Assembly: GCF_004366355.1 (NCBI RefSeq)
Contig: NZ_SODV01000002.1
Location: 2,210,768-2,274,767, forward strand
Length of the DNA: 64,000 nt
Source: Dinghuibacter silviterrae
GTDB taxonomy: Bacteria; Bacteroidota; Bacteroidia; Chitinophagales; Chitinophagaceae
Reading direction: 5' to 3'
Shown here: positions 3,961 through 31,608 of the stretch, piece by piece
How the letters are laid out: the number at the start of each line of letters is the position of its first letter
Numbering within the stretch: the stretch's first letter is position 1
Position numbers and translations under genes: made by a program
Notes under the pieces: generated by a model
The model's input: only the letters and a program-made list of their open reading frames with translations
The model's database searches: none
Told to the model about the DNA's origin: nothing

Positions 3961-3998
3961 ATCGGTCATAAAATGATCGGGTGAAACTACGGCTTTTA

Positions 3999-10727: not shown

Positions 10728-10767
10728 ATATGAGGACCGAATGTACCGTATCGCGGCCATTTGCCCA

Positions 10768-10785
10768 CCCCTACATTACTACTAC
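10768..10785 (+). promoter_or_regulatory. Operator-like 18-bp element, copy A
   Basis: CCCCTACATTACTACTAC is two CC(M)CTAC-type heptamers with starts 11 bases apart (second copy 6/7). It fits the consensus CCMCTACATNNCYMCTAC seen also at 19366-19383 and 19430-19413. It lies 41 bases above the GH9-fusion start and 60 bases above the regulator start. The one-helical-turn spacing suggests a protein binding side by side on one DNA face; the protein is not identified. Confidence 0.55.
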
Positions 10786-10831
10786 ATCGCCTATTTTCAA
10801 TAATTTAGAATTTTAGATGGGCCGATCCGGC

Positions 10832-10844: not shown

Positions 10845-13574
10845 ATGAGAAAGTTTCTTCTCCTGGTCATCTTGTGCCGCTTCCTGATGAATGACGCTGA
10901 GGGGCAGTCTACCATCGGCCTGCCGGCTATTCGAAACTATACCAATATCGACTATCACGCGGCGATCGAGATCTGGGGTATCGGCCAGGATAAGCACAAC
11001 ATCCTCTATTTTGCCAATAACGACGGCCTGCTGACCTTCGATGGCGCCTACTGGAAGCTTTTTCCGTTGCCCAACAAAGCGGCGATCCGGTCGCTGGCCA
11101 TAGATGATTCCGGTAAGATCTTTGTCGGCGGCCAGGACGAGATCGGTTATTTCTACCCGGGCGGGACCGGGATGCTGGTCTATCATTCCCTAAAAGAACG
11201 TCTTCCGCCGGTCGCCCGGCAGTTTGCCGACATCTGGAGTATCGTTATCCTGGGAAACGCCGTTTTTTTCCGGACCATTGAATCGATTTTCGAGCTGAAG
11301 GACGATTCCCTACAGACCTTTGACGCACCCGGGGGCTGGCTGTTCCTGGCCAAAGCCGGCTCCACACTGTATGCCGAAGATAGGGTAAAAGGGTTACAGG
11401 TCTTTCACAACGGACAATGGGAAGCAAGCGGAGTAAACCCGATACATATAACGGGTATCATGGAATATGCACAGGATACCTTGCTGGTTGCCACTTTGAA
11501 GAGTGGCCTATACCTGCTGCACGGGTCCGCGTTGTCCAAAGAGCCAACGGCCATCGATCACCTGCTGGCCAGCGACCTGGTCAATACTGCCTTTAAGATA
11601 GAGGATGACCGGTATGTCCTTGGTACCAATGACGGTGGAGCCTATATGATCGATCATGCCGGCCGGCTGATCCAGCAATACGCAAACAATGGCATCCTTG
11701 CTATCTTCCCCGATCGTGATAAAAACCTGTGGTTGGGTCTTAAAAACGGGATGGCCTGCATCCATTACAACACCGCGGTCAAACATATCTACCCGGTGAA
11801 GGACAGGCAAATCATGTGTAATGCAGTCAGCGTATTCGATAAAAAGCTCTTTATCGGAACCTCCAACGGCTTGTACAGCGTACCGCTCGACCCCGCACAG
11901 GACGATATCAGTTCCGGGAAGGGCGTATTCACGGAAGTGGCCGGCTCGAAAGGACAGGTATGGAGCCTGGCGGAAGTCAACCATGAGCTTTTGTGCGGCC
12001 ACGAGGATGGAGCCTTTGTCATCCGCCATGACCGGGCCATCCCGTTGCTGACGGGGCAAGGTGCCTGGGGGTTCGCCTTTATCCCGTCCTCGAACGATAC
12101 TGATATTATAGCGGGCACCTATACGGGATTACAGCGGATCCATTATGAAAAAGGTGAATTCCGGGAAGAAGGGAGGGCCAGCCCTTTATATGAATCGTTG
12201 AGCAGCCTCGCCATGGATGGACATCATACGGTATGGGCCTCCCACCCTTACCGGGGCGTTTTCAAAATAGAGGCGGATGTCCCTTATACACACTATACCC
12301 CAAAAGACGGTTTGCCTTCGGATCTGAACAATTTTGTCTTTTGGATCCGGAATAAGATTGTCATAGCCACGGAGAAGGGAGTCTACGAGTACGATTCATT
12401 AAAGGGGAAGTTCATGCCCTCCCCCTTTTTCAAACCCCTGATCGGAGACAACAGCGTCGAATACCTCGCGGAAGATCACCATGGCCATATCTGGTTTATC
12501 TCCAATCAGCGGGTGGGTGTCATCGATTTCAACAAATCTTCCGTCATCTATTTCCCGGAACTCGACGGGCAGACGGTAAAGGGAGCCGGGTATATATACC
12601 CCTATGACGACGAGAATATCTTTATAGGTGGTAACAACGGGCTGTTCCACCTAAACTATAATCAATATATAAAGACGGACACGGGAGTCTCCGTTCTGCT
12701 AAGTACCGTTGAGCCCGTGGGAAAGAATTCCATTAATTTCGAATATGCGTCCCCGGTATATGCCCGGGAAAACAATGTCGAATTCAGCTATAGGCTGGAA
12801 GGGTTTGACAAAGCATGGTCGGACTGGTCCCCAAAGACCGAGAAGGACTATACCAACCTGTCTTTTGGCGATTACACCTTTTATGTAAGGGCCAGGAATA
12901 ACCTCGGGAATGCCTCCGCCCCCGTCCAATACCGGTTCTCCATAGCGCCCGCCTGGTATCAGACCCCCTGGGCCTGGCTCCTCTATATAGCACTGGCGGC
13001 TTTTGTCGTTTGGGGGGTCCGGAAAAGACAGCGCTCAAGACTCGCCCTCCATCAGAAGCGGCATGAGGAGGAGCAGGAACGATTGAATTATTTACACGGC
13101 CTGGAGCTTATCGCTTTACAAAAGGCCAAACTGGAGACAGAACTGGCTACCGTCACCATGCACCTGGTCGAACGCGGCCGGTTATTACTGACGATCAAGG
13201 AAGAGCTTTTGTCGGTGATCAAAAGACTCAACATCTCCAGCCTGGCCCATGAGTTCAAAAGTGTATTCAGGCTGATGAGCGATACCGAAAAAAGTGATGA
13301 TGACTGGAACCGGTTTGCCATCCATTTCGACCAGGTACACAATAACTTTTTATCCACGCTGAAAGCCAAATTCCCGAGCCTTAGTGCGACCGATCTTAAG
13401 CTCTGTGCTTACTTACGGCTAAATTTAAGCTCCAAAGAGATTGCGCAAATGCTGAATATTTCGCTGAAAGGCGTGGAGGTCAGCCGGTACCGGATTCGCA
13501 AAAAATTCAACCTCGCTACGGAGACCAACCTGTACGATTTCCTGATTGACGTCACCGGTAGATCCTCCCCATAA
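10845..13574 (+). CDS. Membrane-anchored beta-propeller/Y_Y_Y regulator with LuxR-type HTH
   Basis: A 909-residue sensor-regulator. Order: signal peptide (1-20, cleavage after EG-Q), two-component-type propeller repeats (about 35-600, for example IWGIGQDKHNILYFANNDGLLTFDG), Y_Y_Y domain (about 635-705, EFSYRLEGFDKAWSDWS), one transmembrane helix (about 706-727, WAWLLYIALAAFVVWGV), a cytoplasmic coiled coil (about 730-790), and a C-terminal LuxR/GerE-like HTH (about 840-895, LSSKEIAQMLNISLKGVEVSRYRIRKK given in parts). There is no histidine kinase or receiver domain, so signal passes directly from the periplasm to the HTH. Family knowledge: such proteins control neighbouring glycan-use genes. 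Divergent to the GH9 fusion; candidate binder of the 18-bp elements (inference). Confidence 0.85.
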   Translation: MRKFLLLVILCRFLMNDAEGQSTIGLPAIRNYTNIDYHAAIEIWGIGQDKHNILYFANNDGLLTFDGAYWKLFPLPNKAAIRSLAIDDSGKIFVGGQDEIGYFYPGGTGMLVYHSLKERLPPVARQFADIWSIVILGNAVFFRTIESIFELKDDSLQTFDAPGGWLFLAKAGSTLYAEDRVKGLQVFHNGQWEASGVNPIHITGIMEYAQDTLLVATLKSGLYLLHGSALSKEPTAIDHLLASDLVNTAFKIEDDRYVLGTNDGGAYMIDHAGRLIQQYANNGILAIFPDRDKNLWLGLKNGMACIHYNTAVKHIYPVKDRQIMCNAVSVFDKKLFIGTSNGLYSVPLDPAQDDISSGKGVFTEVAGSKGQVWSLAEVNHELLCGHEDGAFVIRHDRAIPLLTGQGAWGFAFIPSSNDTDIIAGTYTGLQRIHYEKGEFREEGRASPLYESLSSLAMDGHHTVWASHPYRGVFKIEADVPYTHYTPKDGLPSDLNNFVFWIRNKIVIATEKGVYEYDSLKGKFMPSPFFKPLIGDNSVEYLAEDHHGHIWFISNQRVGVIDFNKSSVIYFPELDGQTVKGAGYIYPYDDENIFIGGNNGLFHLNYNQYIKTDTGVSVLLSTVEPVGKNSINFEYASPVYARENNVEFSYRLEGFDKAWSDWSPKTEKDYTNLSFGDYTFYVRARNNLGNASAPVQYRFSIAPAWYQTPWAWLLYIALAAFVVWGVRKRQRSRLALHQKRHEEEQERLNYLHGLELIALQKAKLETELATVTMHLVERGRLLLTIKEELLSVIKRLNISSLAHEFKSVFRLMSDTEKSDDDWNRFAIHFDQVHNNFLSTLKAKFPSLSATDLKLCAYLRLNLSSKEIAQMLNISLKGVEVSRYRIRKKFNLATETNLYDFLIDVTGRSSP

Positions 13575-14634
13575 AGGGATCGTCAAAGATGACCTTCTTC
13601 ATTTCTTCCGGATCGATGATCCCTTGGTGCCGGTACACGACTTTGCCCCCCGGCTCCACGAGCAGGCTATACGGCAGGGCGCCCTGCCATGGGGTGTCGA
13701 GGGCATCGATCAGCTTGTACACATCACTACCGGAGAATATAAAGTTGGGTGAAGAGGATTGTTTGTTTTGCAGGAAACGCAGCGCCTGGGCCCGGTGCGC
13801 GCTATCGTCCGTACTGATGCTCACCAGCTCGAATCCCCGGTCCCGGTACATCCGGTTCAGGGTGACCAGGTCCGAAAACTCCGCTGTGCAGGGACCGCAC
13901 CAGGTTGCCCAGACGTTGATCAGCCGCAATTTGCCCGTAGGGTTTTTGATCAGTTCCCTGACCCCAGCCGTATCGACGGATTCCAGGGTCACCGGCTCTT
14001 GGGCCCAGGTGACGGCGGCCTTCTCTTTCCAAACACTTTTCTCTGCCCATTTGATGGAACAGCCAAAGACTTTGGTGACGGTCACCGGGACTTCCCGGTT
14101 GTTCAGCAAGGCCTCGATCGCATTACGGGCATCCTGGCTATGGGGCGTCTTTTTCGGATCTTCCGTGTCATCGATACGGCCGTTATACCGCAGCTTCCGC
14201 GCGCTGTCAAAAATAAAAACATGGGGTGTGCAGACCGGTCCGTATTTGTTGGAGGCAACCTCCGTTGCCCCGTCATACAGATAGGGGAAATTGAACCCGG
14301 CGTTCCTGGCACGGATCTTCATCTCCGCATAAGAATCGCCCACGTCACTGTAGCCCAGTTCATCCAGCCGCACGGCATTCGGGTTGTTGGGATTGATGGC
14401 CACCACCTGTACACCCCTGTCCTTATAATCGCTGGTCAGTTGAATGACACGGCCCTCGTACGCCTGCGAAGTGGGACAGTGATTGCACATAAAAACGACC
14501 ACCAGCACCTTGGCCTCCTTGAAGGATTGCAGCGAGTACATCTTGCCGTCTACGCCCCGCAAATGAAAGTCCGGCGCGGGAGCGCCTATGGCTAGTGTCT
14601 GATGCACAACGAAAAGCAACAATGGTATGATCAT
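13552..14634 (-). CDS. Secreted protein with two thioredoxin-fold domains (AhpC/TSA plus TlpA type)
   Basis: A 360-residue periplasmic protein. A short signal sequence (MIIPLLLFVVHQTLA) is followed by a first redoxin domain (about 16-185) with CNHC (Cys50, Cys53) in place of CxxC, then a linker and a second, TlpA-like domain (about 215-345) with WCGPC near residue 245. The first domain resembles the thioredoxin-family proteins with VFMCNHCP; the second resembles disulfide reductases. It is the last gene of the SusC-SusD operon, starting 2 bases after the SusD stop, and overlaps the 3' end of the convergent regulator by 23 bases. It may keep a partner protein or substrate in the right redox state; target unknown. 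Confidence 0.85.
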   Translation of the reverse strand: MIIPLLLFVVHQTLAIGAPAPDFHLRGVDGKMYSLQSFKEAKVLVVVFMCNHCPTSQAYEGRVIQLTSDYKDRGVQVVAINPNNPNAVRLDELGYSDVGDSYAEMKIRARNAGFNFPYLYDGATEVASNKYGPVCTPHVFIFDSARKLRYNGRIDDTEDPKKTPHSQDARNAIEALLNNREVPVTVTKVFGCSIKWAEKSVWKEKAAVTWAQEPVTLESVDTAGVRELIKNPTGKLRLINVWATWCGPCTAEFSDLVTLNRMYRDRGFELVSISTDDSAHRAQALRFLQNKQSSSPNFIFSGSDVYKLIDALDTPWQGALPYSLLVEPGGKVVYRHQGIIDPEEMKKVIFDDPFMGRIYR

Positions 14635-14636
14635 GG

Positions 14637-16205
14637 TTAAAAATTACCTTTTGCAATATCCCACCACAAACGGGTGCCGCCGTTGTCCGGACCGCCTAAA
14701 AGGGAAAGCCCGGTCTTTAGCCCGGCCGGATTCTGTGTGGCTTCACTGTGCGGATACGCCAGGCGCCGGACCTGGATTTTGGTGTCTATCGTCCCTCCGC
14801 TGTTGTTGACCACGACCGGGAACAGCCTGGGATACCCGGTGCGACGGAATTCCGTCCATGCCTCCTGGCCTTCCGGGAACATCGCCAGCCATTTTTGGGT
14901 AATGATCCTTTCCAACTGCACTTCATTGGAAGCCGTGGGGTCCCATTTGATCGTGATCGTGGACTGCGCCGGTGCATTGTTGGTGGCGTTAAGATAATCA
15001 ACATAATCGGCAGGTTTGCTGGTAGAATCCGTGATGTAGGTGGCCCCGTTTACGCCATACTGGGTCATGGACGTAAGAATGCCCGTTTCGTAGTCGGTTT
15101 TTGCGTCTCCGGCCCCTGTCCAACCCCGCACCGCAGCCTCCGCTTTCAGGAACCATACCTCGGCGGCCGTCATGATGACCTCGGGCGCGGAAATGGTGAA
15201 CGTGGTGTTATAGTTGTATTTGGAGAAACCGGAGTAAAAAGGCTTCGGCGGGATATTGCACCCGATGCGGATGCCCGTATATTGACTGGTATGACCGGCG
15301 TTGGTATCCGGCATAAAATAAACGGGAAGGCGGGGGTCATTGTAACCGGTCATGTAGGACTGTATGGAGGCGTTCATGGAATTGTCTCCATAACTGTCGG
15401 TAATCTGCCAGTAGTCGTTCCCGTTGGCCGAGCTGGCCAGAACGGCTGCGACATCCGTAGCGGCGGACAACAGCCCGCCGCCGGCGCTCAGCGCCTTTTG
15501 TCCCTGGGCCTGGGCCGTAGCCGGGTCCACTTTCACCAGGTGCATCGCCAGGCGTAGCCTGAGCGAATTGGCGAATTTCAGCCACAACGTATAGTCGCCG
15601 CCGAAGATGGCGTCATAGCTGGCGAGGGGTTTCGAGCCCGGTTGGGCGGCAATATATGCCTGGAGGTTGGCCACGGCCGTATCCAACTGCAGGAACATCT
15701 GCTGATAGATGCTTTGCTGGCTGTCATAAGGGACGCTGACCATGGACGTCCCTACCTTGCTATAGGGCACCGGCCCGAATTTGTCCGTGATCCGGTCAAT
15801 GGCTTCCACTTCCACGATGAGTGCAATGGCCCAGTAGTCCGGATTGGTGGTGCTGACCCCGGTCGCTGCGAGCTGGTTTTTGATAGGACCGATCAGTTTG
15901 GTGTAGATACTGCTGAACGCCTCCGTATTCCAGCTATCGATAAAAACGTAGTTGGCATTGTCCAGGGCCTGGCCGAATGTTTGGTCCGGCATGGCATAAC
16001 CGGCATAGACATCGGCATTCAGGTTCTGACCGGTCTGATAGCCGTCGTCCTGGATATACATGATCTCCTGCTCCAATGGAATAAATAAGGTGGCTACGTT
16101 GAGGTCCTGGTTGGGCGTCCCCGTGGGGTCCGTATTATAATCTTTGAAGTTTTTGGTACACCCGGCCAGAACGAACAAGATACCGGCGATATATATCGAT
16201 TTCAT
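14637..16205 (-). CDS. SusD-like outer-membrane lipoprotein (SusD_2 type)
   Basis: A 522-residue surface lipoprotein with signal MKSIYIAGILFVLAGC and lipidated Cys16. The body is the SusD/RagB TPR fold of the 'SusD-like 2' group: NTDPTGTPNQDL near the start, WNTEAFSSIYTKLIGPIKNQL, and the C-terminal QKWLAMFPEGQEAWTEFRRTGYP. It caps the SusC barrel and binds substrate at the cell surface. It sits 10 bases after SusC and 2 bases before the redoxin gene in a tight operon. The ligand is not deducible from sequence; the divergent PTS suggests a sugar or amino sugar. Confidence 0.9.
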   Translation of the reverse strand: MKSIYIAGILFVLAGCTKNFKDYNTDPTGTPNQDLNVATLFIPLEQEIMYIQDDGYQTGQNLNADVYAGYAMPDQTFGQALDNANYVFIDSWNTEAFSSIYTKLIGPIKNQLAATGVSTTNPDYWAIALIVEVEAIDRITDKFGPVPYSKVGTSMVSVPYDSQQSIYQQMFLQLDTAVANLQAYIAAQPGSKPLASYDAIFGGDYTLWLKFANSLRLRLAMHLVKVDPATAQAQGQKALSAGGGLLSAATDVAAVLASSANGNDYWQITDSYGDNSMNASIQSYMTGYNDPRLPVYFMPDTNAGHTSQYTGIRIGCNIPPKPFYSGFSKYNYNTTFTISAPEVIMTAAEVWFLKAEAAVRGWTGAGDAKTDYETGILTSMTQYGVNGATYITDSTSKPADYVDYLNATNNAPAQSTITIKWDPTASNEVQLERIITQKWLAMFPEGQEAWTEFRRTGYPRLFPVVVNNSGGTIDTKIQVRRLAYPHSEATQNPAGLKTGLSLLGGPDNGGTRLWWDIAKGNF

Positions 16206-19302: not shown

Positions 19303-19365
19303 TGGAGCAGTTTTTATGCGTGGCCCCCAATCTAATCCGTCCTCCCACCCCATGCTATTTTCCTG

Positions 19366-19383
19366 CCCCTACATCGCCACTAC
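19366..19383 (+). promoter_or_regulatory. Operator-like 18-bp element, copy B
   Basis: CCCCTACATCGCCACTAC consists of heptamers CCCCTAC and CCACTAC with starts 11 bases apart. It shares the exact 10-mer CTACATCGCC with 10782-10791 next to copy A. It lies between the SusC and PTS operons and reads towards the PTS genes. Confidence 0.55.
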
Positions 19384-19412
19384 GGCCCGCAAAAAAACCG
19401 GCCGGCAACGCT

Positions 19413-19430
19413 GTAGGGGAAATGTAGTGG
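19413..19430 (-). promoter_or_regulatory. Operator-like 18-bp element, copy C
   Basis: Read on the minus strand this is CCACTACATTTCCCCTAC, again two CCMCTAC heptamers with an 11-base period and the conserved AT after the first. It is oriented towards SusC, opposite to copy B 30 bases away, so each divergent operon has one element pointing at it. Confidence 0.55.
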
Positions 19431-19473: not shown

Positions 19474-19866
19474 GTGAATAGAAAATTCCTGATCGCCACC
19501 CACGGCGCTATGGCCGAGGGCGTCCTGTCGGCCGTGCATCTTATTACGGGCCAGGTAGAGAACGTATTTTTAATACAGGCCTACTTGCATGAAAACAAGC
19601 CTATTGAGGAAGAACTTGAGGGGCTGTGTGAAGATGAATGGGTGGTCTTTACAGACCTGCTCGGCGGCAGCATCACCAACCAGGTCCTTCGATATGCTGC
19701 GGAAAAAGGGATCCTGGATAACATTCATATCGTGGCCGGGTTCAACCTGGCCCTGCTGATCGAAGTGCTTCTGTCCGATACAGACACCCCCCTGGTGGAG
19801 GTGGTGGAGCAGGCCGTCAATAGGGCAAAGGACCAACTGGTCTATGTAAACAAAGTAGTACAATGA
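19474..19866 (+). CDS. PTS mannose-family enzyme IIA
   Basis: A 130-residue cytoplasmic phosphocarrier of the EIIA-man fold: KFLIATHGAMAEGVL at the start, FTDLLGGSITNQV in the middle, and VAGFNLALLIEVL. The start codon is decided by function: GTG 19474 places the phospho-accepting histidine at position 10, exactly as in ManX; a TTG at 19456 would add six residues. It takes phosphate from HPr-His15 and passes it to IIB. The first gene of a six-gene operon; its last four bases (ATGA) overlap the IIB start. Confidence 0.9.
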   Translation: MNRKFLIATHGAMAEGVLSAVHLITGQVENVFLIQAYLHENKPIEEELEGLCEDEWVVFTDLLGGSITNQVLRYAAEKGILDNIHIVAGFNLALLIEVLLSDTDTPLVEVVEQAVNRAKDQLVYVNKVVQ

Positions 19867-20339
19867 TTAAACTAACCCGTATCGACGACCGGCTGGTGCA
19901 CGGACAGGTGGCCTTCACCTGGACACCCGCCCTGGGTATCGACTGCCTGCTGGTGGCCAATGATAAGCTGGCCGGTGACGAATTTCAGAAAATGGCACTC
20001 GGCCTGGCCAAGCCGGCCGGGGTTACCCTTTTGATCAGGACGGTCCGGGAGGCGGCTGCCTTCCTGAACGATACAAAAAGCCAGGGATATAAGATCCTGG
20101 TGCTCATAGACAGCGTAAAAGATGCGCATGCCCTGTCTCAGGAAGTGCCGGCCATCCGCTCGGTCAATGTCGGTGGTATCCGGGCAAAAGAGGGCGCCAC
20201 GCTTCTGTCAAAAGCCGTTGCCCTAACCGGGGACGATGTACTGCTCGCGCGGGAACTGCTGGGGCAAGGGATCGAGCTCGAAGTACGGCAGGTGCCCACG
20301 GACAAAAAACAAATGCTGGAAAAGCTACTTCCCTCGTAA
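19863..20339 (+). CDS. PTS mannose/sorbose-family enzyme IIB
   Basis: A 158-residue cytoplasmic protein of the PTSIIB_sorb family, of normal length. MIKLTRIDDRLVHGQVAFTW contains the active histidine (His13) in the family motif R-x-D-x-R-L-x-H-G-Q-V. ATGA overlap with IIA shows translational coupling, and the IIC-IID gene follows after 2 bases. It transfers phosphate to the sugar during passage through the membrane component. Sugar specificity cannot be read from sequence; galactosamine-type, glucosamine-type and hexose systems all use this family. Confidence 0.92.
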   Translation: MIKLTRIDDRLVHGQVAFTWTPALGIDCLLVANDKLAGDEFQKMALGLAKPAGVTLLIRTVREAAAFLNDTKSQGYKILVLIDSVKDAHALSQEVPAIRSVNVGGIRAKEGATLLSKAVALTGDDVLLARELLGQGIELEVRQVPTDKKQMLEKLLPS

Positions 20340-20341
20340 CC

Positions 20342-21844
20342 ATGATGTCCTATATATTCATTACGCTAATCGTTGTATTTGGTCACTCGGAGGATTTCCT
20401 GGGGACCACCCTCTTAGGCAGGCCCCTTGTCCTGGGTCCCCTGGTAGGCTGGGTGCTTGGAGACCTTCACCAGGGCCTTGTGATCGGAGCCACCCTGGAG
20501 CTGATATTTATGGGCAATATCAAGGTCGGCGCGGCGATCCCCCCGGATGTGATCACAGGTGGCGTCCTGGGCACTGCTTTTGCCATCCTGTCGGGGAAGG
20601 GCGCCGCCATAGCGCTGGCTTTGGCCATACCCATTTCCATATTGGCGGAAATGCTGCTCAGCGCACTCTTTGTATCCAGGTCCGCGTTCAATAAGAAGTT
20701 CATGGCGTATGCCGGGGCCGGCAGGTTTGACAAGGTACAGCGGCTCCACATTCTATCGGGCCTCTTAAAGCCTTTGTCGATGGGGCTGATCACCTTTCTC
20801 TCCCTTCAGTTGGGGGCCGGTGCCATGAAGTCCCTGCTTGACCGGATCCCTTCCTGGGTGAATGAGGGACTACAAGTGGCCGGAAATATGCTGCCGGCGC
20901 TGGGGTTCGCCTTATTGATGAACCTGATGTTCACCAGGCGGGTGGCGCCTTACTTCTTCCTTGGATTCCTGCTCGCCGCTTATCTAAAGCTGCCGCTGAT
21001 CGCCGTAGGAGGACTGGGGGTCATCATAGCCCTGCTGGTCACACAAGGCGGCCAGCCCGTTCCTGCGGAAGAAGAACCGGACCCTTTTACACCCCAACTG
21101 GCAAAGGCCACGATCCGGAACCTTTTTTTCAGGTCCTTGCTCCTTGAAGCGAATTTCAATTTCGAGACCTGGCAGAATACCGGTTTTGCCTTTGCCATGC
21201 TTCCCGTCCTGAAAAAATTGTACCCCACAAAAGAATCGATGTCACCGGCCCTTCAGCGGCATTTGCAACTGTTTAATACCAGCACTTATGGATCTACGCT
21301 GATCCTGGGGATAACGGCTGCCATGGAAGAGCAGCAGGTCGACCCGGGCACCATTAATTCCATCAAGCTGGGATTGATGGGCCCCCTGGCGGGCGTTTTT
21401 GATTCTTTATTCTGGGGGACCCTCAGGGTGATCGCTGCAGGTGTCGGGGTTTCCCTGGCGCTGAAAGGGAATATCGCCGGTCCCGTTCTTTTCATCCTGC
21501 TGTTCAACGTTCCTCACCTGTGGCTTCGCTATGAACTGACTTTTATCGGGTACAAAACCGGGACCCGGTTCCTGCAAAAGCTTGCCCAGGGCCACGTCAT
21601 GGAGAAGCTGACCACCGGCGCCGCTATCCTGGGATTGATGGTGGTGGGCGCCATGCCGGCTACACTGATGGCCGTCAAAGCGCCCTCACAGGCCGTATTG
21701 GACCAGGTGATGCCCGGTATGATCCCTTTGGGCCTGACATTCCTGGTGTATTATTTTGTAAAAAAGAGTGTCAAAATAACGTATCTATTGTTAGGCTTGC
21801 TGGCGTTGGGCTTTGCCGGGAGCATGCTTCACTGGCTTGTATGA
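20342..21844 (+). CDS. PTS mannose-family IIC-IID fusion permease
   Basis: A 500-residue inner-membrane protein that joins two subunits normally made separately. Residues 1-235 are EIIC (FGHSEDFLGTTLLGRPLVLGPLVG; hydrophobic segments throughout; GNIKVGAAIPPDVITGG). A short charged linker at about 236-248 (QPVPAEEEPDPFT) leads to EIID at about 249-500, with RSLLLEANFNFETWQNTGFAFAMLP and HLQLFNTSTYGSTLILGITAAMEE in the usual places (each quoted in part of the conserved block). IIC forms the translocation path and IID completes it. ATG 20342 or 20345. The fusion is in one frame with no stop, so it is not a sequencing artefact unless a base was gained or lost exactly at the junction. Confidence 0.88.
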   Translation: MMSYIFITLIVVFGHSEDFLGTTLLGRPLVLGPLVGWVLGDLHQGLVIGATLELIFMGNIKVGAAIPPDVITGGVLGTAFAILSGKGAAIALALAIPISILAEMLLSALFVSRSAFNKKFMAYAGAGRFDKVQRLHILSGLLKPLSMGLITFLSLQLGAGAMKSLLDRIPSWVNEGLQVAGNMLPALGFALLMNLMFTRRVAPYFFLGFLLAAYLKLPLIAVGGLGVIIALLVTQGGQPVPAEEEPDPFTPQLAKATIRNLFFRSLLLEANFNFETWQNTGFAFAMLPVLKKLYPTKESMSPALQRHLQLFNTSTYGSTLILGITAAMEEQQVDPGTINSIKLGLMGPLAGVFDSLFWGTLRVIAAGVGVSLALKGNIAGPVLFILLFNVPHLWLRYELTFIGYKTGTRFLQKLAQGHVMEKLTTGAAILGLMVVGAMPATLMAVKAPSQAVLDQVMPGMIPLGLTFLVYYFVKKSVKITYLLLGLLALGFAGSMLHWLV

Positions 21845-21860
21845 CGATAAAAAAAATTAT

Positions 21861-23561
21861 ATGAAAGGGATTGGTGTTTCGCCCGGTATTTCCATCGGAA
21901 GGGCCTATGTCGTCGCGAGTCATACCATGGCCCGGACCGGCATCGTATTGACCTCCGACCAAGCCGTACAGGAAGAGGTCGTGCTGTTCCACCAGGCAGT
22001 AGAGGCATCCATCCATGAAGTGAAGGCCATTATTGCCAATGTCAATTCGGCCATCCCTGAAGAAGGCCTTGCCATTTTAGAGATGCAGGTTGAATTGCTG
22101 GATGACCCTCAATTGGCAACGGATGTGACCACCAAAATAGGCCGGGACCGGAAAAGCGCGCACGATGCCGTCGTAGAGGCCATCCAGGAAGCCGTCCAGT
22201 TGCTAAAAAATACGGATGATGATTACTTCCGGGCAAGGGCGGCCGATGTGCAGGATATCGGTCAGCGGATCCTTCAGCATATAGACGGCCCCGGGAATGC
22301 CGGTCCCCGTACATTCGACGCCGGCACCATCCTTATTGCCGAGGACCTCTCCCCTTCGGACACCATTTTGATAGATACCAGCCGGATCCGTGGGTTTGCC
22401 ACCAATGCCGGCGGGAAAACGTCCCATACGGCCATTATTGCCTTGTCCAGGGGCATACCCGCCGTCGTCGGCTGCGGTGATGACCTCGCGGGTATCGCCA
22501 ACAATGACCTCATCCTGCTGGACGGGGAGACCGGTCTTATTCTGGTCAATCCCAGCCAGGACCAGGTAGACGAATACCAACAAAAAAATGCCGCTTTTAC
22601 CGAGAAACAACGGCTGTTGCAATCCCTGAAAAATATCCCGGCTACGACCACCGATGGGATCACCATACGCCTGATGGCCAATATCGGACGGGAAGAAGAT
22701 ATGGCCCCCGCACTTGAACACGGCGCGGAAGGCGTCGGACTTTTACGGACCGAGCTGCTCTTCCTGGGCAAGGACGCTTTCCCGACGGAAGACGAGCAAT
22801 TCGAGTACTATAAATGGATCGCACTGCTGTCAAAAAACAAACCCGTTACGATTCGGACCCTCGATATCGGAGGGGATAAGCAGTTGCCTTATTTTCCGTT
22901 GCCGGAAGAGCAGAACCCCGTGCTGGGGTACCGGGCCATCCGGATCGGTCTTGACCAAAAGGATATTTTACGCACCCAGCTGAGGGCCATTTTAAGGGCC
23001 AGCGCGTTTGGCCGGCTCCGTATCCTGCTGCCCATGATTTCGGGCGTACAGGAGGTCCGGGCGGTCAAAGAGATCCTGGCGGCGGAAAAAAAGGAAGTTA
23101 CCGGGTTTGATCCCCATATCCCTTTGGGTATCATGATCGAGATCCCTTCCGCTGCGATCATGGCCGACCTGCTCGCCAAAGAAGTGGATTTCTTCAGTAT
23201 CGGCACCAACGACCTCTGCCAATATACATTGGCCGTGGACCGGATGAATGAACGGGTCAAGGGTCTTTACGATCCTTATAACCCGGCCGTATTAAGGCTC
23301 ATCAGTTACACCATCGGGCAGGCCCATGCACACAACATCGGCGTTTGTCTTTGCGGAGAGCTGGCATCCGACCCTTTGGCCACCTTGCTGCTGGCTGGGA
23401 TGGGCCTGGAAGAGTTCTCCATGAACGCAGGGTCCATCCCACTGATCAAAAATATCATCCTGCATTCCAGCCGTTCCGAGGCTGTTGCCGTATTCAAAAA
23501 AGTAATGACCATGGATAATTCAAGGGACATCGTCCACTATTTAGAGGAGGTAAACCGATGA
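21861..23561 (+). CDS. ptsI: PTS enzyme I (phosphoenolpyruvate-protein phosphotransferase)
   Basis: A 566-residue cytoplasmic enzyme that autophosphorylates from phosphoenolpyruvate and passes phosphate to HPr. MKGIGVSPGISIGRAYV at the N-terminus, GGKTSHTAI with the active histidine exactly at position 189 as in E. coli EI, the PEP-binding AEGVGLLRTELLF, and FFSIGTNDLCQYTLAVDR with GVCLCGELASDP (Cys of the C-terminal site) are all present. Length is normal. ATG 21861 was chosen because it gives this numbering; it lies 16 bases after the IIC-IID gene. The stop overlaps the HPr start by ATGA. Confidence 0.95.
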   Translation: MKGIGVSPGISIGRAYVVASHTMARTGIVLTSDQAVQEEVVLFHQAVEASIHEVKAIIANVNSAIPEEGLAILEMQVELLDDPQLATDVTTKIGRDRKSAHDAVVEAIQEAVQLLKNTDDDYFRARAADVQDIGQRILQHIDGPGNAGPRTFDAGTILIAEDLSPSDTILIDTSRIRGFATNAGGKTSHTAIIALSRGIPAVVGCGDDLAGIANNDLILLDGETGLILVNPSQDQVDEYQQKNAAFTEKQRLLQSLKNIPATTTDGITIRLMANIGREEDMAPALEHGAEGVGLLRTELLFLGKDAFPTEDEQFEYYKWIALLSKNKPVTIRTLDIGGDKQLPYFPLPEEQNPVLGYRAIRIGLDQKDILRTQLRAILRASAFGRLRILLPMISGVQEVRAVKEILAAEKKEVTGFDPHIPLGIMIEIPSAAIMADLLAKEVDFFSIGTNDLCQYTLAVDRMNERVKGLYDPYNPAVLRLISYTIGQAHAHNIGVCLCGELASDPLATLLLAGMGLEEFSMNAGSIPLIKNIILHSSRSEAVAVFKKVMTMDNSRDIVHYLEEVNR

Positions 23562-23812
23562 TCGCCAAAGAGTATGTAATCAGCGCCCCTGAAGGGATAC
23601 ACGCCCGCCCGGCCACAGGGCTGGTCCGGCTGGCCAAACAATTCCAATCCGTGATCAACCTGAAAAAAGGAGACAGGATTGTCCGGCTCAACAGCCTGCT
23701 GAACATCCTTTCGCTGGCCGCGAAAGGCGGGGAGACCATCACTCTCCTGATCGAAGGGGAAGACGAAGAGACGGCTGCCTCAGCACTAGATAAATTTTTC
23801 GCCGATATATGA
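23558..23812 (+). CDS. ptsH: Phosphocarrier protein HPr
   Basis: An 84-residue HPr of normal length. GIHARPATGLV carries the phospho-accepting His15, and Ser46 (RLNSLLNILSL) is present at the site that HPr kinase phosphorylates in Firmicutes. No HPr kinase gene lies in the window. Overlaps enzyme I by ATGA and the deaminase gene by ATGA, so general and sugar-specific PTS components are made from one message here, which differs from the usual separate ptsHI operon. Confidence 0.95.
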   Translation: MIAKEYVISAPEGIHARPATGLVRLAKQFQSVINLKKGDRIVRLNSLLNILSLAAKGGETITLLIEGEDEETAASALDKFFADI

Positions 23813-24549
23813 CAATCACCATTGCCAGGAACGAACAGGAATTTGATCAAATGGCCGCATGGCGCATCATTGCCCAAATGCTCGAAAAACCCGATGCCGT
23901 CATAGGGCTGTCCACCGGTCAAACCACCATGGAGATGCACCGGATCGTGTCCGCCATTCATACCGCATACCCCTTCGACGTCTCCCGGATCACCCTTTTC
24001 AATGTCGATGAATTGACCAACCTCCCAAGATCGTATGCCGGCAGTTGTTATACCATGATCCAGAACCAGATTGCCGGGCCCCTGGGCATCCCTCCGGAAA
24101 ATTTTATTATGCCCCCTACCCTGTCGGATGATTTTGAAGCAGAATGTCTGCTCTTTGAGCAACGCCTCGCCTCCCGGGGCGGTGCCGACCTCCAGATGCT
24201 CGGTATCGGGCTCAACGGCCATATCGGCATCAACCAGCCCGGCACTCCATTTGAGCGCGAGACATGGGTGTCGCCGATGGACCCCGACTTCGAAGCGAGG
24301 GTCCGCAGGGAGACGCAGGTACCCGACCACGTCGTCCTGGGCGGCCTGACGCGGGGCATAAAGAACATCATGCACACACGGAAACTGATATTGATCGCCA
24401 AGGGCGCCCACAAAGCGGAGATCATCCAAAAAGCCATCCTGGGGCCGGTGACTACGGATATACCGGCCTCTGTCGTTCAGTTGCATCCGAATTGCGAGAT
24501 CCTGGTCGATGCGGCAGCAGGAGCGAGGATCGCTCACCGCCTGTCATAG
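23809..24549 (+). CDS. NagB/AgaI-type amino-sugar-6-phosphate deaminase/isomerase
   Basis: A 246-residue cytoplasmic enzyme of the NagB/6-phosphogluconolactonase superfamily. GLSTGQTTMEMH (phosphate site), FNVDEL with Asp67 (equivalent to E. coli NagB Asp72), and LGIGLNGHIGINQPGTPF with His138. In E. coli NagB the ring-opening triad is Asp141-His143-Glu148; here the equivalents are Asn136-His138-Gln143. Asn is found in other NagB-type enzymes as far as I recall, but Gln for Glu is unexpected. Length is nearer AgaI (about 251) than NagB (266). Last gene of the PTS operon, so it should act on the phosphorylated sugar made by the PTS, probably glucosamine-6-P or galactosamine-6-P. No deacetylase (NagA) is nearby. 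Overlaps the convergent HepT gene by 6 bases. Confidence 0.8.
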   Translation: MTITIARNEQEFDQMAAWRIIAQMLEKPDAVIGLSTGQTTMEMHRIVSAIHTAYPFDVSRITLFNVDELTNLPRSYAGSCYTMIQNQIAGPLGIPPENFIMPPTLSDDFEAECLLFEQRLASRGGADLQMLGIGLNGHIGINQPGTPFERETWVSPMDPDFEARVRRETQVPDHVVLGGLTRGIKNIMHTRKLILIAKGAHKAEIIQKAILGPVTTDIPASVVQLHPNCEILVDAAAGARIAHRLS

Positions 24550-24879
24550 CAATAAACCGCGAATCTGCGCATCCAGCATATTTAGATCCATCTGAATAAT
24601 CTCCCAAACGATGGCATCATCGATGCCAAAATAGTCGTGAACAAGGATATTCCGGAAATCTTTAACCTGACGCCAGTCGATGTCTGAATGAAGGGATTTG
24701 TAGGATGCATCGATTCTGGCCACAGCTTCCCCAATAATGGCAAAGTTTCGCTCTACAGCATGCTTGGTTTTTAAGTCTGACTTGTACGTGTCAAGCGTTA
24801 GCCCTTGAGTAAATGCCTTGATATTTCCAATGGCTTCCAGAATGTCTTGTAGAAGTGACGGCGTATCTCTTTCAGACAT
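24544..24879 (-). CDS. HepT-like (DUF86) HEPN toxin
   Basis: A 111-residue all-helical protein with the HEPN motif R-x4-H-x-Y at RNILVHDY (Arg76, His81, Tyr83). This is a HepT-type toxin, a putative RNase, regulated by its MntA-like partner; in characterised pairs MntA AMPylates the Tyr of this motif. The reading frame overlaps the partner gene by 8 bases, typical of these modules. Complete, with no missing catalytic residue. Confidence 0.88.
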   Translation of the reverse strand: MSERDTPSLLQDILEAIGNIKAFTQGLTLDTYKSDLKTKHAVERNFAIIGEAVARIDASYKSLHSDIDWRQVKDFRNILVHDYFGIDDAIVWEIIQMDLNMLDAQIRGLLL

Positions 24880-25162
24880 GAATCAGGTTTTTCTCGACGA
24901 AAGGCATATATCGGGGCTTAATGCCTTTACGGGAAATAAGATCGACCTTCTGGTTAAAAAGATCCTCCAGCTCATGGGCAAGTCGGATAAACCGGATACC
25001 TATGGGGCCATTGAAGTCAACCAGGATGTCAATGTCGCTTGCACTGTTATTGTCCCCTCGGGCATAGGACCCAAAAAGCCCGAGTTCGCTAATGGGATAG
25101 CGCGTCTGGAGGTCAGGCTTCTTGGCACTCAGAATGGACAATATTTGATCCTTGTTGTACAC
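24872..25162 (-). CDS. MntA-like minimal nucleotidyltransferase antitoxin
   Basis: A 96-residue nucleotidyltransferase with GSYARGDNNSASDIDILVDF: Gly31-Ser32 and Asp43/Asp45 form the GSx10DxD motif that binds ATP and metal. In known MNT/HEPN pairs this enzyme neutralises HepT by AMPylation. Start is GTG 25162, only 4 bases below a perfect -7 promoter element, suggesting a leaderless message. First gene of the two-gene unit; located 17 bases after the fucosidase gene on the same strand but with its own promoter. Confidence 0.88.
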   Translation of the reverse strand: MYNKDQILSILSAKKPDLQTRYPISELGLFGSYARGDNNSASDIDILVDFNGPIGIRFIRLAHELEDLFNQKVDLISRKGIKPRYMPFVEKNLIHV

Positions 25163-27907: not shown

Positions 27908-29026
27908 TTAATTCAAGAAAATCCCCGCCAGCCTCTTCTCAAGCTCCTCCCCCCGAAGGTTCTTCCCGATAATCCTCCCCTGCGGGTCGATTAGGAAATT
28001 CTGCGGGATGGCGTTGACCCCATATTGCTTCGCCACCGCGTTGTTCCAGAATTGGAGGTCGGAAACCTGTGTCCAGGAAAGGTGGTCCATTTGAATGGCG
28101 GCGAGCCATTTATCCCGGTCGCCGGAGCGGTCGAGGGATACGCTCAGGATCGCAAAACCTTTGGGGTGGTATTGGGCATAGACCCCTACCAGGTTCGGGT
28201 TCTCCATGCGGCAGGGTCTGCACCAACTGGCCCAGAAATCCAGCAGGACGTATTTGCCTTTGAAGGAAGAAAGTGTGACCGGATTGCCCGCCGTATCGTT
28301 TTGGGTAAAGTCCGGGGCCGGTTTGCCGACGGCGGTTTTTGCGGCGATGTCCAGGCGTTCCCCAAAGGCCTTTCCCTGCCTGGATCCCTTTATGGATGCG
28401 TTCAGGCCATCGAAGATCGGTTGTAACTTATCCGGGTCCATATCCCGGGAGGCATATTGCCCGAGGGCATACAAGGCCAGGGGGGAAGCCGGGTGTTGAC
28501 GGGCAAATGCCCCATATACCGTGTTGGTTTCCGCGCGCAGTTGCTCGTTTTCTTTTTCCAGGGCGGCCATGGCAGCGGTGTCCCCGGCGGCATGGGCGGC
28601 CTGGTACCGGGTGACCAGGTCGGCCTCGCGCTGGCTGTAAGGCTTTTCCGCATCCTGGAGACCTTTGAACTGGGTGTTGAGCTCTGAACCGGTAAAAGCA
28701 GTATTGGAAAATGAATCGGTGTGGGCGACCGTCAACACACCCGGTGTCAGGTAGATTTGTGCAAAATGGGGTTCATGGAGCGGGATCCCCTGGTTGGGAG
28801 ACCTATCGAGCAAATAGGCGGGTCCTTCATCGGACACTTCCCCATGGAATACGTAAGCGCCATCTGTTACGGATACGCTGTCCAATGTGCGCTGACCGTC
28901 CTTGGCATAGAGCAGGTAAATCTCGCCGGCGGTCATGTTCCGGAGGGTGCCGTGTATCGTAAATGTCTGTGCAAATAAAGCCATGGGGACGGCTAATTGG
29001 AAGAAAAAACAGAAGAACTTCTTCAT
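27908..29026 (-). CDS. DUF4369/TlpA-type thioredoxin-like protein
   Basis: A 372-residue periplasmic protein. Signal peptide (MKKFFCFFFQLAVPMALFAQ), an N-terminal DUF4369 beta domain (about 20-110, FTIHGTLRNMTAGEIYLLYAKDG given in part), a helical charged middle (about 115-225), and a C-terminal TlpA/AhpC redoxin (about 235-372) with the redox site WCRPC near 267 and IPQNFLIDPQGRII. A disulfide oxidoreductase of the ResA/TlpA group acting on a secreted partner. The start overlaps the MutS-like gene stop by ATGA, so it is the last gene of the ABC/MutS operon. Confidence 0.88.
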   Translation of the reverse strand: MKKFFCFFFQLAVPMALFAQTFTIHGTLRNMTAGEIYLLYAKDGQRTLDSVSVTDGAYVFHGEVSDEGPAYLLDRSPNQGIPLHEPHFAQIYLTPGVLTVAHTDSFSNTAFTGSELNTQFKGLQDAEKPYSQREADLVTRYQAAHAAGDTAAMAALEKENEQLRAETNTVYGAFARQHPASPLALYALGQYASRDMDPDKLQPIFDGLNASIKGSRQGKAFGERLDIAAKTAVGKPAPDFTQNDTAGNPVTLSSFKGKYVLLDFWASWCRPCRMENPNLVGVYAQYHPKGFAILSVSLDRSGDRDKWLAAIQMDHLSWTQVSDLQFWNNAVAKQYGVNAIPQNFLIDPQGRIIGKNLRGEELEKRLAGIFLN

Positions 29027-31608
29027 GTAATCAGGTTTAAAATTTGTTCGTTTTCGATGATGAGCATGCCATGTCTATCCGCCGAAATACCTGGCTCCAG
29101 CCGATACGTATAGCGCGGGATCGGGCCGTCCATCTGCGTGGGCAAATACACGAACCGCAGGTTGTCGAGGCGCTGTCCCAGGGTTTCTCCCACTTCGGTG
29201 ATGTGGGTGGAGATCAAGAACAGACAGTTCCGGTAGGCTGAAAGTGCTTCTGTCACGGCCAGGGTGGCATCGTAGGCGTCCTTGACGTTCGTACCCTTGA
29301 AGAGCTCGTCAAAGATGACGACCAGGTCCTTACCGGCGCTGACTTCTTCCGCGACCTGTTTGACCCTTAGGACCTCCGCATAGAAGTGGCTATACCCCAG
29401 GCTGAGGTTATCAGGGACGTTGATCGAGGAATACAGACCGTCCCGGACCGAAAAGACCATGTTTTCAGCAGCCACCGGGAAGCCGATATGCCCGAGGTAA
29501 ACCGCGATGCCAAAGGATTTCATAAAGGTGGACTTACCCGCCATGTTGGCCCCGGTGAGGAAAAGCATATTGTTTTCCCCGTCAAGGGACAGGGGATTGG
29601 CAACGGCCTTGTCGATACCCGGGTGTCTCAACGCGGTGGCATTAAAAGTCCGGCACTCCTTTGGCAACGCCTTGGCATACGAAAACCCTTTTTCCCGGGC
29701 GACGTTGCCGACGGCAATGTTGACATCGAGCGCATAAATGCATTGCAGCAGCTTTTCCAATTCGGGGCGCAGCACATTCCGGAAAAGATGATCGAGGGAA
29801 CCCAGCCGGGTCAATGACAGCGCCGCCAAACGCTTATCCGCCAATATTTCCTTCAGGAACCGGACCTCCTCTCCAAAAGGCCCTTCCTCCGGTAATAGCG
29901 GCAAAAATTTTGTCAACACCTCTAAAACCCTGACGACGGCACCCACGCCTGTCTTTAACACGTGATAGGCTTCGTCCCGCATGATGGCGGCGGTTATCCT
30001 TTTCCTGAGCGCCCCTACCCTTGCAGTCAGCGCATTTCCTTGGGCACCGCCCAGGTAGTCTTCCACGAGGGTCAATGCTTCTTTGTCAAAAGGAAAGCGC
30101 AGGGCCAGGTCCGCAAAGTGCCGGAAGACAGCGCTTCGCCGGTTGATGGCGTCCGGGTCGGACAAGGGTTGCCGGAACAGGTGGTCCAGCAGCCGTTCTC
30201 CCCCCACCGTTTGTACCTTGTTAAAAAGACTGTATATCGAATGCGGTTTGTACCTGCCGGGCAGGTTCAAATCATCCAGGGTTTGTTTGTCCGCGATAAA
30301 GCCTTTTTTGGTTGAGCCCGGGGAGGCGGGCGTCTTCAGCACATCGAAAATCCTTTCGTTGTGAATAATGACCATTCCATGCCGGTCGGCGGTTACGCCT
30401 TCTTCCAGGGTATAGGTATATACCGGCGTGTGGCCGTTCATCCGCGTCGGCAGGTAGACGAAGCGGACGTTGTTACAGCGCCTGCCCAGCACTTCGGCCG
30501 CCTCGACGATATGGGTGGAGATCACGAAAATGCTGTTCCGTTTCCCGGCAAAGGCCTCGGTGATGGCAATGGTCGCTTCATACGCATCCTTTACGTTGGT
30601 CCCCCGGAACAGTTCGTCAAAGATGACAAAGAGGTTCCGGGAACGGTATAATTCATGCGCTACCTTTTTGACGCGAAGGACCTCGGCATAAAAGTGGCTG
30701 GCCCCCATCCCCAGGTTATCCGGGAGGTTGATGGTGGTATAGATGCCGTCCAGGACCGAAAATTCCATCTTAAGAGCGGGCACGGGAAATCCCATGTGCG
30801 CAAGGAAGAGTGCGATGCCCAGGGTTTTCATAAAGGTGGACTTGCCCGCCATGTTGGCGCCCGTTAAAAAGAGGACATTGTTTTCCGGTGTGATCTCCAG
30901 GGAATTGGGTACTGCGTTTTTGAGCAAGGGGTGATAAACCGCCTCCAACCGGACGCTGCCCGCGGAAGCAGGCAGTGCGGTGGGAAAGACGAAACCCAGG
31001 TCGAGGGCTGCTTTTCCCACCGCGATGTACACGTCGAGGTAATAAAGCTGTTTGAGCAAGTCCAGGACGAGTGCACGGTGCCTGAACCGCAGCAGCAGGT
31101 CGAGTGCGGCGATCTTTGCATAAGGAAGTTTGCTCCCGGCGGAGAACACCGGTTCGAGGGCCGGATTCGTCAACAGCGCGTCCAACCCGGGATACGGGTT
31201 CGAACCGGCAAAGGCTTTTAGTCCATGAAGGAGCTCCAGCAAGGCTCCTACCCCCTTTTGAATGGCCTTGAACTCCATGTCCGCCCCGACCGCGTTGGTC
31301 AGGCGTTCTCCCAGGCTGCGTTCTTCTCCGGATAATTTTGTCCGCTCGTCGGTGTTCGCCAGGTACGGTTCCACCGCGTCGAACAAATCGCTTCGAAAGG
31401 GAAATGCCACGCCTGACAGGTACCGGATCAAACCCACGCGACGGTTGATGGCCTCCGCGTCCGACAAGGGATAACGAAACATGTCCTCCAGCACCTTGGC
31501 ACCGCCCAGGGTGACCGTACGGTTAAACAACGCATATACGGAGGCCCCGCCCCGTTTGCCAAAGAGGCTGAGGTCGTCCAGGGTCTGCTGGTCCGTAGTA
31601 AATCGCAT
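29023..31608 (-). CDS. Tandem-duplicated MutS-like ATPase (two MutS III/V units fused)
   Basis: An 861-residue cytoplasmic protein made of two homologous halves, about 1-435 and 436-861. Each half opens with TLDDL-(S/N)-L and then LGG/VGG-(A/E)-(K/R)-(V/L)L-D-(M/L)FR-(Y/Q)PLSD-(A/P)-(E/D)AINRR, and each holds a MutS-type ATPase with the Walker A TGANMAGKSTFMK (about 250 and 683), Walker B VIFDELF(R/K)GTNVKDAY and the STHI motif. Neither half has the mismatch-recognition domain I, so this is not classical MutS. MutS-like ATPases work as dimers, so the fusion may form its own intramolecular dimer. It sits 5 bases after the GldFG-like permease gene and overlaps the thioredoxin gene by ATGA. Role unknown. 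Confidence 0.9.
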   Translation of the reverse strand: MRFTTDQQTLDDLSLFGKRGGASVYALFNRTVTLGGAKVLEDMFRYPLSDAEAINRRVGLIRYLSGVAFPFRSDLFDAVEPYLANTDERTKLSGEERSLGERLTNAVGADMEFKAIQKGVGALLELLHGLKAFAGSNPYPGLDALLTNPALEPVFSAGSKLPYAKIAALDLLLRFRHRALVLDLLKQLYYLDVYIAVGKAALDLGFVFPTALPASAGSVRLEAVYHPLLKNAVPNSLEITPENNVLFLTGANMAGKSTFMKTLGIALFLAHMGFPVPALKMEFSVLDGIYTTINLPDNLGMGASHFYAEVLRVKKVAHELYRSRNLFVIFDELFRGTNVKDAYEATIAITEAFAGKRNSIFVISTHIVEAAEVLGRRCNNVRFVYLPTRMNGHTPVYTYTLEEGVTADRHGMVIIHNERIFDVLKTPASPGSTKKGFIADKQTLDDLNLPGRYKPHSIYSLFNKVQTVGGERLLDHLFRQPLSDPDAINRRSAVFRHFADLALRFPFDKEALTLVEDYLGGAQGNALTARVGALRKRITAAIMRDEAYHVLKTGVGAVVRVLEVLTKFLPLLPEEGPFGEEVRFLKEILADKRLAALSLTRLGSLDHLFRNVLRPELEKLLQCIYALDVNIAVGNVAREKGFSYAKALPKECRTFNATALRHPGIDKAVANPLSLDGENNMLFLTGANMAGKSTFMKSFGIAVYLGHIGFPVAAENMVFSVRDGLYSSINVPDNLSLGYSHFYAEVLRVKQVAEEVSAGKDLVVIFDELFKGTNVKDAYDATLAVTEALSAYRNCLFLISTHITEVGETLGQRLDNLRFVYLPTQMDGPIPRYTYRLEPGISADRHGMLIIENEQILNLIT

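Follow-up and report, generated by a model that had tools for sequence, protein, structure and literature searches.

The 64,000-nucleotide stretch of DNA analysed here, from the genome of Dinghuibacter silviterrae (contig NZ_SODV01000002.1, positions 2,210,768 to 2,274,767; below called the window, in whose own numbering its coordinates are given), carries an operon for a phosphotransferase system (PTS), in which sugar uptake is driven by phosphoenolpyruvate (PEP), back to back with genes for a SusC and a SusD protein. The operon runs from 19474 to 24549 and encodes IIA, IIB, a fused IIC-IID protein, Enzyme I (EI), HPr and an enzyme with the NagB fold. An earlier interpretation made from the letters alone (the sequence-only reading) had described six genes over this interval; all of them were recovered there, and in a profile search each of the six proteins exceeded its own Pfam cut-off.

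19474-19866, plus strand: PTS IIA of the mannose family, His10; GTG start, PF03610 at 45.4 bits, His invariant in 69 rows
19863-20339, plus strand: PTS IIB, His13; PF03830 at 149.8 bits, His invariant in 69 rows
20342-21844, plus strand: fused PTS IIC-IID of 500 amino acids; PF03609 (232.4 bits) and PF03613 (281.8 bits) in one frame, ManY and ManZ homologues in the PDB
21861-23561, plus strand: PTS Enzyme I, His189; TIGR01417 at 609 bits (cut-off 341.7), catalytic residues invariant in 66 rows
23558-23812, plus strand: PTS HPr, His15 and Ser46; PF00381 at 85.6 bits, residues invariant in 64 rows
23809-24549, plus strand: enzyme with the NagB fold, from a subfamily of its own, with Asn at E. 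coli position 141 and Gln at E. coli position 148; PF01182 at 61.6 bits

There are 4-base overlaps at the IIA/IIB, EI/HPr and HPr/NagB junctions, and gaps of 2 and 16 bases at the remaining ones. The phospho-accepting histidines had been assigned correctly: with the GTG start at 19474 that of IIA is His10, and this residue, IIB His13, EI His189 and HPr His15 are invariant among aligned relatives (66 EI, 64 HPr, 69 IIA and 69 IIB rows, window included), as are R296, R332, R358, E431, N454, D455, R465 and C502 of EI (E. coli numbering) and R17 and S46 of HPr. IIA and IIB are mannose/sorbose-type domains with their phospho-histidines, the membrane domains IIC and IID are both present, and EI, which scores over the TIGR01417 cut-off and keeps its catalytic residues, groups with the EI of sugar PTS. 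Separate IIC and IID proteins, which are usual for the mannose family but do not define it, are not what the window has; the fusion is kept in relatives, 66 of 72 aligning over at least 85% in one frame. The solved structures nearest to IIC-IID are ManY/ManZ-type proteins, and its predicted monomer model, which is weak (mean predicted local distance difference test score, pLDDT, of 69.5), served fold recognition only. We propose that the window encodes a working mannose-family permease with PEP-dependent uptake. The genome was also searched for a second ptsHI pair; only a single HPr and a single EI N-domain were found in this genome-wide profile search, so the PTS of the window does not look redundant.

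The notion that the operon is peculiar to this genome had to be abandoned, since a scan of a named genome collection, with two short peptide patterns that distant relatives would escape, returned 72 related loci from five orders, all but one titled Bacteroidota. The titles include Mucilaginibacter, Pedobacter, Hufsiella, Daejeonella, Puia, Chitinophaga, Ferruginibacter, Chryseolinea, Dyadobacter, Flagellimonas, Allomuricauda and Bacteroidales bins; the exception, L067, titled Beijerinckiaceae, carries a Bacteroidota cassette, and its title is probably a labelling error. The six genes stand in identical order in 60 of the 72 loci (61 of 75 before removal of the duplicates, namely L083, which repeats L067, and L081 and L082, which repeat L041 and L042), and because the whole order recurs elsewhere the operon is not a chance arrangement. 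Of the 12 loci without the full order, nine are truncated at a contig end, L041 stops shortly after EI, and genes are missing from L056 and L080 although their contigs continue. At L080 (8001-8384) the IIC-IID frame stops after about 130 residues, with no EI found after it on a 166-kb contig, and this looks like a decayed or misassembled copy.

The PTS is nonetheless rare in the class. In the family, IIC (PF03609) exceeds its cut-off in 4 of 294 genomes (7 of 294 if matches at E 0.001 are included; three weak matches, with E from 3e-4 to 7e-4, are below cut-off). It does so in one of 395 genomes of a phylum sample, namely this genome, which is also the only one of 395 in a class sample with HPr; genera with the cassette may be under-represented in these samples. 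The earlier statement that most Bacteroidota lack a PTS is supported as far as the class is concerned; in the phylum sample, HPr was found in 283 of the 395 genomes. The other 282 are listed as of the same phylum and none as of the same class, and 19 of 20 fetched HPr loci from the phylum, read by eye, have an EI-like frame adjoining HPr (L093 has none).

The cassette extends past the six-gene operon and includes the following genes.

6543-10760, minus strand: 1405-amino-acid protein with three ThuA stretches (416.8 bits), CelD_N (66.3 bits) and exo-type GH9 (78.2 bits; Pfam)
10845-13574, plus strand: 909-amino-acid regulator with Reg_prop propeller, Y_Y_Y and a GerE (LuxR-type) DNA-binding end (Pfam); relatives in 22 of 72 loci
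13552-14634, minus strand: two-domain redoxin (AhpC/TSA and thioredoxin-like; Pfam); relatives in 32 of 72 loci
14637-16205, minus strand: SusD-like lipoprotein; PF12741 at 543.9 bits
16216-19353, minus strand: SusC-like TonB-dependent transporter; PF07715, PF13715 and PF00593

The SusC and PTS genes diverge, as had been read earlier, with 120 bp between IIA and the longest SusC frame, which starts at 19353. Adjacent SusC and SusD genes, accompanied by a carbohydrate-active gene and a regulator, characterize the region as a SusCD polysaccharide-utilisation locus. Within flanks of at most 8 kb, beyond which linked genes escape, exo-type GH9 (over 300 bits) was counted near 51 of the 72 loci and, at E up to 1e-10, ThuA near 37, redoxin near 32, the regulator near 22, a pectate-lyase-like gene near 18 and GH18 near 15. 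The proposed linkage of SusCD and PTS does recur in some relatives, and a putative operator is common to both, but GH9 and ThuA are more usual partners than SusC (8 of 72) or SusD (6 of 72). Seven of the SusC genes, those in L022 (partial), L025, L052, L058, L067, L071 and L075, encode proteins 53-75% identical to that of the window; the eighth, in L036, reaches just 24%. ThuA, GH9 and other parts of the cassette are often separate genes in relatives. A Flagellimonas locus (L065, 3793-6303) has a ThuA-GH9 fusion in the order of the window with a single ThuA, and in a Bacteroidetes bin (L056, 5028-10327) GH9, redoxin, IIC-IID and the NagB-fold gene lie side by side.

Inverted repeats in the gap between SusC and the PTS genes gave the first sign of an operator. 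The 7-mer CCACTAC occurs in 36 of the 69 regions that precede IIA, the window's among them, and shares the rank of commonest 7-mer with the A+T-rich AAAATAG. A weight matrix built from the other loci alone (48 instances, window excluded) has the 18-bp consensus CACTACATTACCACTACT, in which two CMCTAC half-sites are separated by 11 bp. The three highest-scoring matches to the matrix in the window are listed here.

10769-10786, plus strand: operator-like site 1, score 21.8, the best of the window; in the 84-bp gap between the divergent ThuA-GH9 and regulator genes
19367-19384, plus strand: operator-like site 2, score 21.1; in the SusC/PTS divergent gap
19412-19429, minus strand: operator-like site 3, score 20.1, inverted relative to site 2; in the SusC/PTS divergent gap

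The fourth-best score in the window is 14.9. Among 60 first-order Markov sequences the single best score went up to 23.5 (mean 11.2), whereas 11.9 was the highest value for the third best; the three sites together, though no single one of them, are thus beyond chance. The sites near 19.4 kb are not independent of their discovery, as the letters had been seen beforehand, and a half-site of the 10.8-kb site had also turned up earlier. Upstream of IIA, 39 of 68 regions score at least 9 (lowest 16.3, each locus being left out of its own matrix). When the 53 loci of at least 15 kb are considered, the site accompanies the regulator in 20 of 21 cases and is found in 10 of the 32 loci that have no regulator (Fisher 2.7e-6, relatedness ignored). 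Further sites were located close to the starts of GH9, redoxin or SusC genes in L070, L042, L052 and L058; the regions of a second GH9, NagA and a NagB-PIG-L fusion elsewhere in the D. silviterrae genome have none over score 11. The coupling of SusCD and PTS gains regulatory support from this putative operator at both divergent promoters.

Clues to the sugar come from GH9. The domain in the window is closer to VC0615, PBPRA0520 and VP2484 than to endoglucanases, with the Vibrionaceae structures 3h7l, 6gdt and 5dgq as nearest solved relatives (E about 1e-125 to 1e-135 overall, and 1e-125 to 1e-127 for the window protein). After these, the best GH9 entry has an E of just 8e-11 with the Mucilaginibacter copy, and the window copy has no other match at 0.001. 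Its motifs GGWCDASGD and WRWTEQW, with the catalytic Asp pair and the C-terminal Glu, are both present in 47 of 52 relatives, and the motif Glu is equivalent to VC0615 Glu546 as counted by eye from the alignment. VC0615 (6gdt) is reported to act on chitobiose, (GlcN)2, at a much higher rate than on cellobiose and to leave (GlcNAc)2 undigested, and PBPRA0520 to prefer chito-oligosaccharides (PMC6096475). The GH9 type and its motifs favour glucosamine, with glucose as second choice. The second exo-type GH9 of the genome is 62% identical to a Mucilaginibacter copy and adjoins a DUF5009-like frame (by eye).

The NagB-fold enzyme is the most conserved part of the cassette, with 78-87% identity to the window protein (set A2), compared to 32-60% for EI and 39-59% for IIA. 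Its predicted model (mean pLDDT 80) has a NagB-like fold with glucosamine 6-phosphate deaminase of Bacillus subtilis (2bkv) as best match, which is the best match by sequence as well; no geometry was read from the model, in which pLDDT is below 50 at residues 149-157, adjoining the active-site motif. Asp72, His143 and Lys208 (E. coli numbering) are retained in all 64 rows and Arg172 in 62 of them, and Leu74, Cys85, Trp158, Ser160 and Pro161 are likewise invariant. All 64 rows also have Gln in place of the catalytic Glu148, a residue that contacts the catalytic His143 in the R structure according to PMC4008608, and Asn in place of Asp141. The B. subtilis NagB has Asn at 141 too, but it retains the Glu, which is present in 17 of 17 other NagB-family rows of a tree in which the operon type is a separate clade (100/99) with a long stem. 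Among 247 genomes of a class sample, 39 contain a NagB-family match to the enzyme, the best one besides this genome being at 35%. Since Gln replaces the catalytic Glu throughout, the label of sugar-phosphate deaminase is open to doubt; 'NagB-type' holds as a fold and not as a demonstrated deaminase, and with its reaction unproven the protein is not filed as a glucosamine 6-phosphate deaminase. That the gene encodes the only amino-sugar enzyme of the genome was considered and ruled out, given the NagB-PIG-L-like fusion and the NagA elsewhere. The strongest PF01182 match of the genome adjoins a G6PD-like frame and is by eye a 6-phosphogluconolactonase.

We consider it probable, without being confident, that the cassette is a locus for glycan utilisation in which a PTS, and not a permease with a kinase, forms the last part, probably serving glucosamine from chitosan-like amino sugars. 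Gene content, intact phospho-relay residues, recurrence and operator-like sites can be read directly from the sequence, and from these we infer the following route. SusCD would bring oligosaccharides across the outer membrane, after which the ThuA-GH9 protein, if exported to the periplasm, would free single sugars, most likely glucosamine, from oligosaccharide ends. IIC-IID, with IIB, IIA, HPr and EI, would import the sugar and phosphorylate it with PEP, and the NagB-fold enzyme would convert the resulting sugar 6-phosphate to a glycolytic intermediate; in the case of glucosamine this would be fructose 6-phosphate, with release of ammonia. The Reg_prop/GerE regulator may be the reader of the 18-bp site and act through it on both divergent promoters, so that SusCD and PTS would rise together. 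Several observations weigh against this scheme. SusC and SusD are absent from the surroundings of most loci, the operator is missing upstream of IIA in 29 of 68, its association with the regulator ignores relatedness, and a lone window site of 21.8 falls within the random range. The NagB-fold enzyme, besides its two replaced residues, is below the NCBIfam deaminase cut-offs (191.2 of 326 and 149 of 236.9 bits). The L056 cluster has no IIA, IIB, EI or HPr though its contig continues, and may represent a phosphorylation-free use of IIC-IID or have the other PTS parts elsewhere. VC0615 also cuts beta-glucosides (PMC6096475), and glucose is therefore possible as substrate. Moreover, in the three plasmid records opened, of 342 that match, IIC and IID lie beside two SIS-domain genes and not beside a NagB-type gene.

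Some of these points suit a different hexose, such as glucose, mannose, galactosamine or a modified amino sugar, handled by the same transport machine, with the NagB-fold enzyme as a new subfamily that catalyses another aldose-ketose conversion of the 6-phosphate. The invariant Gln148 and Asn141, the long and fully supported separate branch, the beta-glucosidase activity of exo-GH9 enzymes, the SIS-domain neighbours of the closest plasmid IIC and IID, and the presence in the genome of another NagB-like protein, whose NEPG motif is intact, all agree with it; the published preference of this GH9 type for glucosamine over glucose, the deaminases as closest relatives in fold and sequence, and the retention of Asp72, His143, Lys208 and nearly always Arg172 do not, and we regard it as a possibility to be taken seriously, although doubtful. 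A bolder idea, to which we attach a rather low probability, is that the enzyme, in which amides take the place of both carboxylates around the catalytic histidine in every relative seen, is a new catalytic type for an open-chain, keto or altered sugar 6-phosphate that needs no pyranose ring opening, that ThuA may make such a sugar before import, and that the cassette is a new PTS-run sugar pathway, so far confined to Bacteroidota. It is improbable that N-acetylglucosamine from chitin is the substrate, with deacetylation by NagA before the NagB step: a NagA over cut-off does exist in the genome (G000:C1:653016) and GH18 accompanies a minority of loci, but this NagA is on another contig than the window, its region lacks the operator, and (GlcNAc)2 was not digested by VC0615.

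Recent acquisition of a foreign PTS, with a donor in Bacillota or Gammaproteobacteria and no functional relation to the neighbouring SusCD, would explain that the operon EIs group with the sugar-PTS EI of those phyla and not with seven EIs that adjoin HPr in other classes of Bacteroidota. These seven form a clade of their own, and descent from the HPr/EI pairs common in these classes was rejected on this ground. Yet the operon EIs are one clade (support 96/96; 18 rows chosen of 66), and in a concatenated tree of 62 rows, obtained quickly with a simple model and with long branches flagged, the rows group by order: the order labels need 8 changes, compared to a least possible number of 5 and a shuffled mean of 17.2. 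The window belongs to a supported group of six (96), the other members being three Puia bins or strains, a Chitinophagaceae bin and a further bin with the title Sphingobacteriales. Identities in plasmid records are at best about 46% for EI and about 47% for IIC-IID, no outside sequence of much higher identity that nests the window genes was seen among Bacteroidota genomes and plasmid records, and the operator is common to SusC and PTS. Nesting in a recent donor, for which the trees were to be inspected, and with it recent transfer from outside the phylum, are not supported, and we deem a foreign PTS of this kind highly improbable. The trees are read as one old entry, likely from outside the phylum, followed by patchy retention and some exchange between orders. 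Equally little credence can be given to a regulatory PTS that is not a transporter: Ser46 of HPr is invariant (64 of 64 rows), but the operon includes a full permease, for which this option was rejected, and no HprK C-domain match was found in the genome, a weak absence as the search matched only 3 of 14 control genomes and missed B. subtilis, which has HprK.

If the locus is compared with known systems, it shares with the mannose-family PTS (E. coli ManXYZ, the Aga PTS) the IIA, IIB, IIC and IID domains, the phospho-histidines and the ManY/ManZ-type closest structures, but it has IIC-IID as one protein, EI and HPr in the same operon, and GH9, ThuA and SusCD genes as partners, and, in contrast to E. 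coli ManX as annotated, its IIA and IIB are not joined in one protein. With SusCD polysaccharide-utilisation loci it has SusC, SusD, a glycoside hydrolase and a local regulator in common, whereas the inner-membrane step is a PTS. The GH9 resembles the exo-type enzymes of chitin catabolism in Vibrionaceae (VC0615, PBPRA0520), including the active-site motifs, but its N-terminus looks exported (by eye), and it is fused to ThuA and linked to PTS and SusCD. Fold, His143, Asp72 and Lys208 are those of glucosamine 6-phosphate deaminase NagB (2bkv, 1dea), from which Gln148, Asn141 (the latter common to B. subtilis NagB), Trp158, Leu74 and the separate clade set the window enzyme apart. Finally, plasmid mannose-type PTS operons (Enterococcus, Klebsiella, Cetobacterium) contain the closest plasmid IIC and IID, at 38-47% among the matches listed; these are separate proteins, two SIS-domain genes replace the NagB fold, and the Enterococcus and Klebsiella records have a sigma-54-type regulator. 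Such operons with two SIS genes presumably resemble the gfr PTS for glucoselysine/fructoselysine.

Some other features of the window may be mentioned. ThuA is tied to 3-keto sugar chemistry, and a 3-keto-disaccharide hydrolase family protein (PF06439, 160 bits) is encoded at 3241-4002 (minus strand), a few kb beyond the ThuA-GH9 gene. A HepT/MntA toxin-antitoxin-like pair (24544-25162, minus strand), both members below the curated cut-off, overlaps the end of the NagB-fold gene by 6 bases, and an 861-amino-acid protein at 29023-31608 (minus strand) contains by eye two tandem MutS-like halves.

A paper from 2008 states that the PTS is absent from Bacteroidetes (PMC2405797), and in a 2023 paddy-soil study SusCD figures in gene clusters of Bacteroidota and PTS among the transporters of Firmicutes clusters (PMC10576277). 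A table for an estuary metagenome, however, has low-abundance fructose-PTS orthologues under Flavobacteriaceae (PMC10322874), and therefore some PTS parts had already been assigned to the phylum. A published description of the cassette was not found among the titles and the beginnings of abstracts listed, in a partial coverage of the literature.

Overall, the sequence-only reading is partly supported. What emerges is one apparent regulon that may join TonB-driven outer-membrane capture to PEP-driven uptake. The cassette offers a testable case of a genome with a single PTS, and its fused IIC-IID protein is a subject for structural work, while the NagB-fold enzyme combines strong conservation with an uncertain chemistry.

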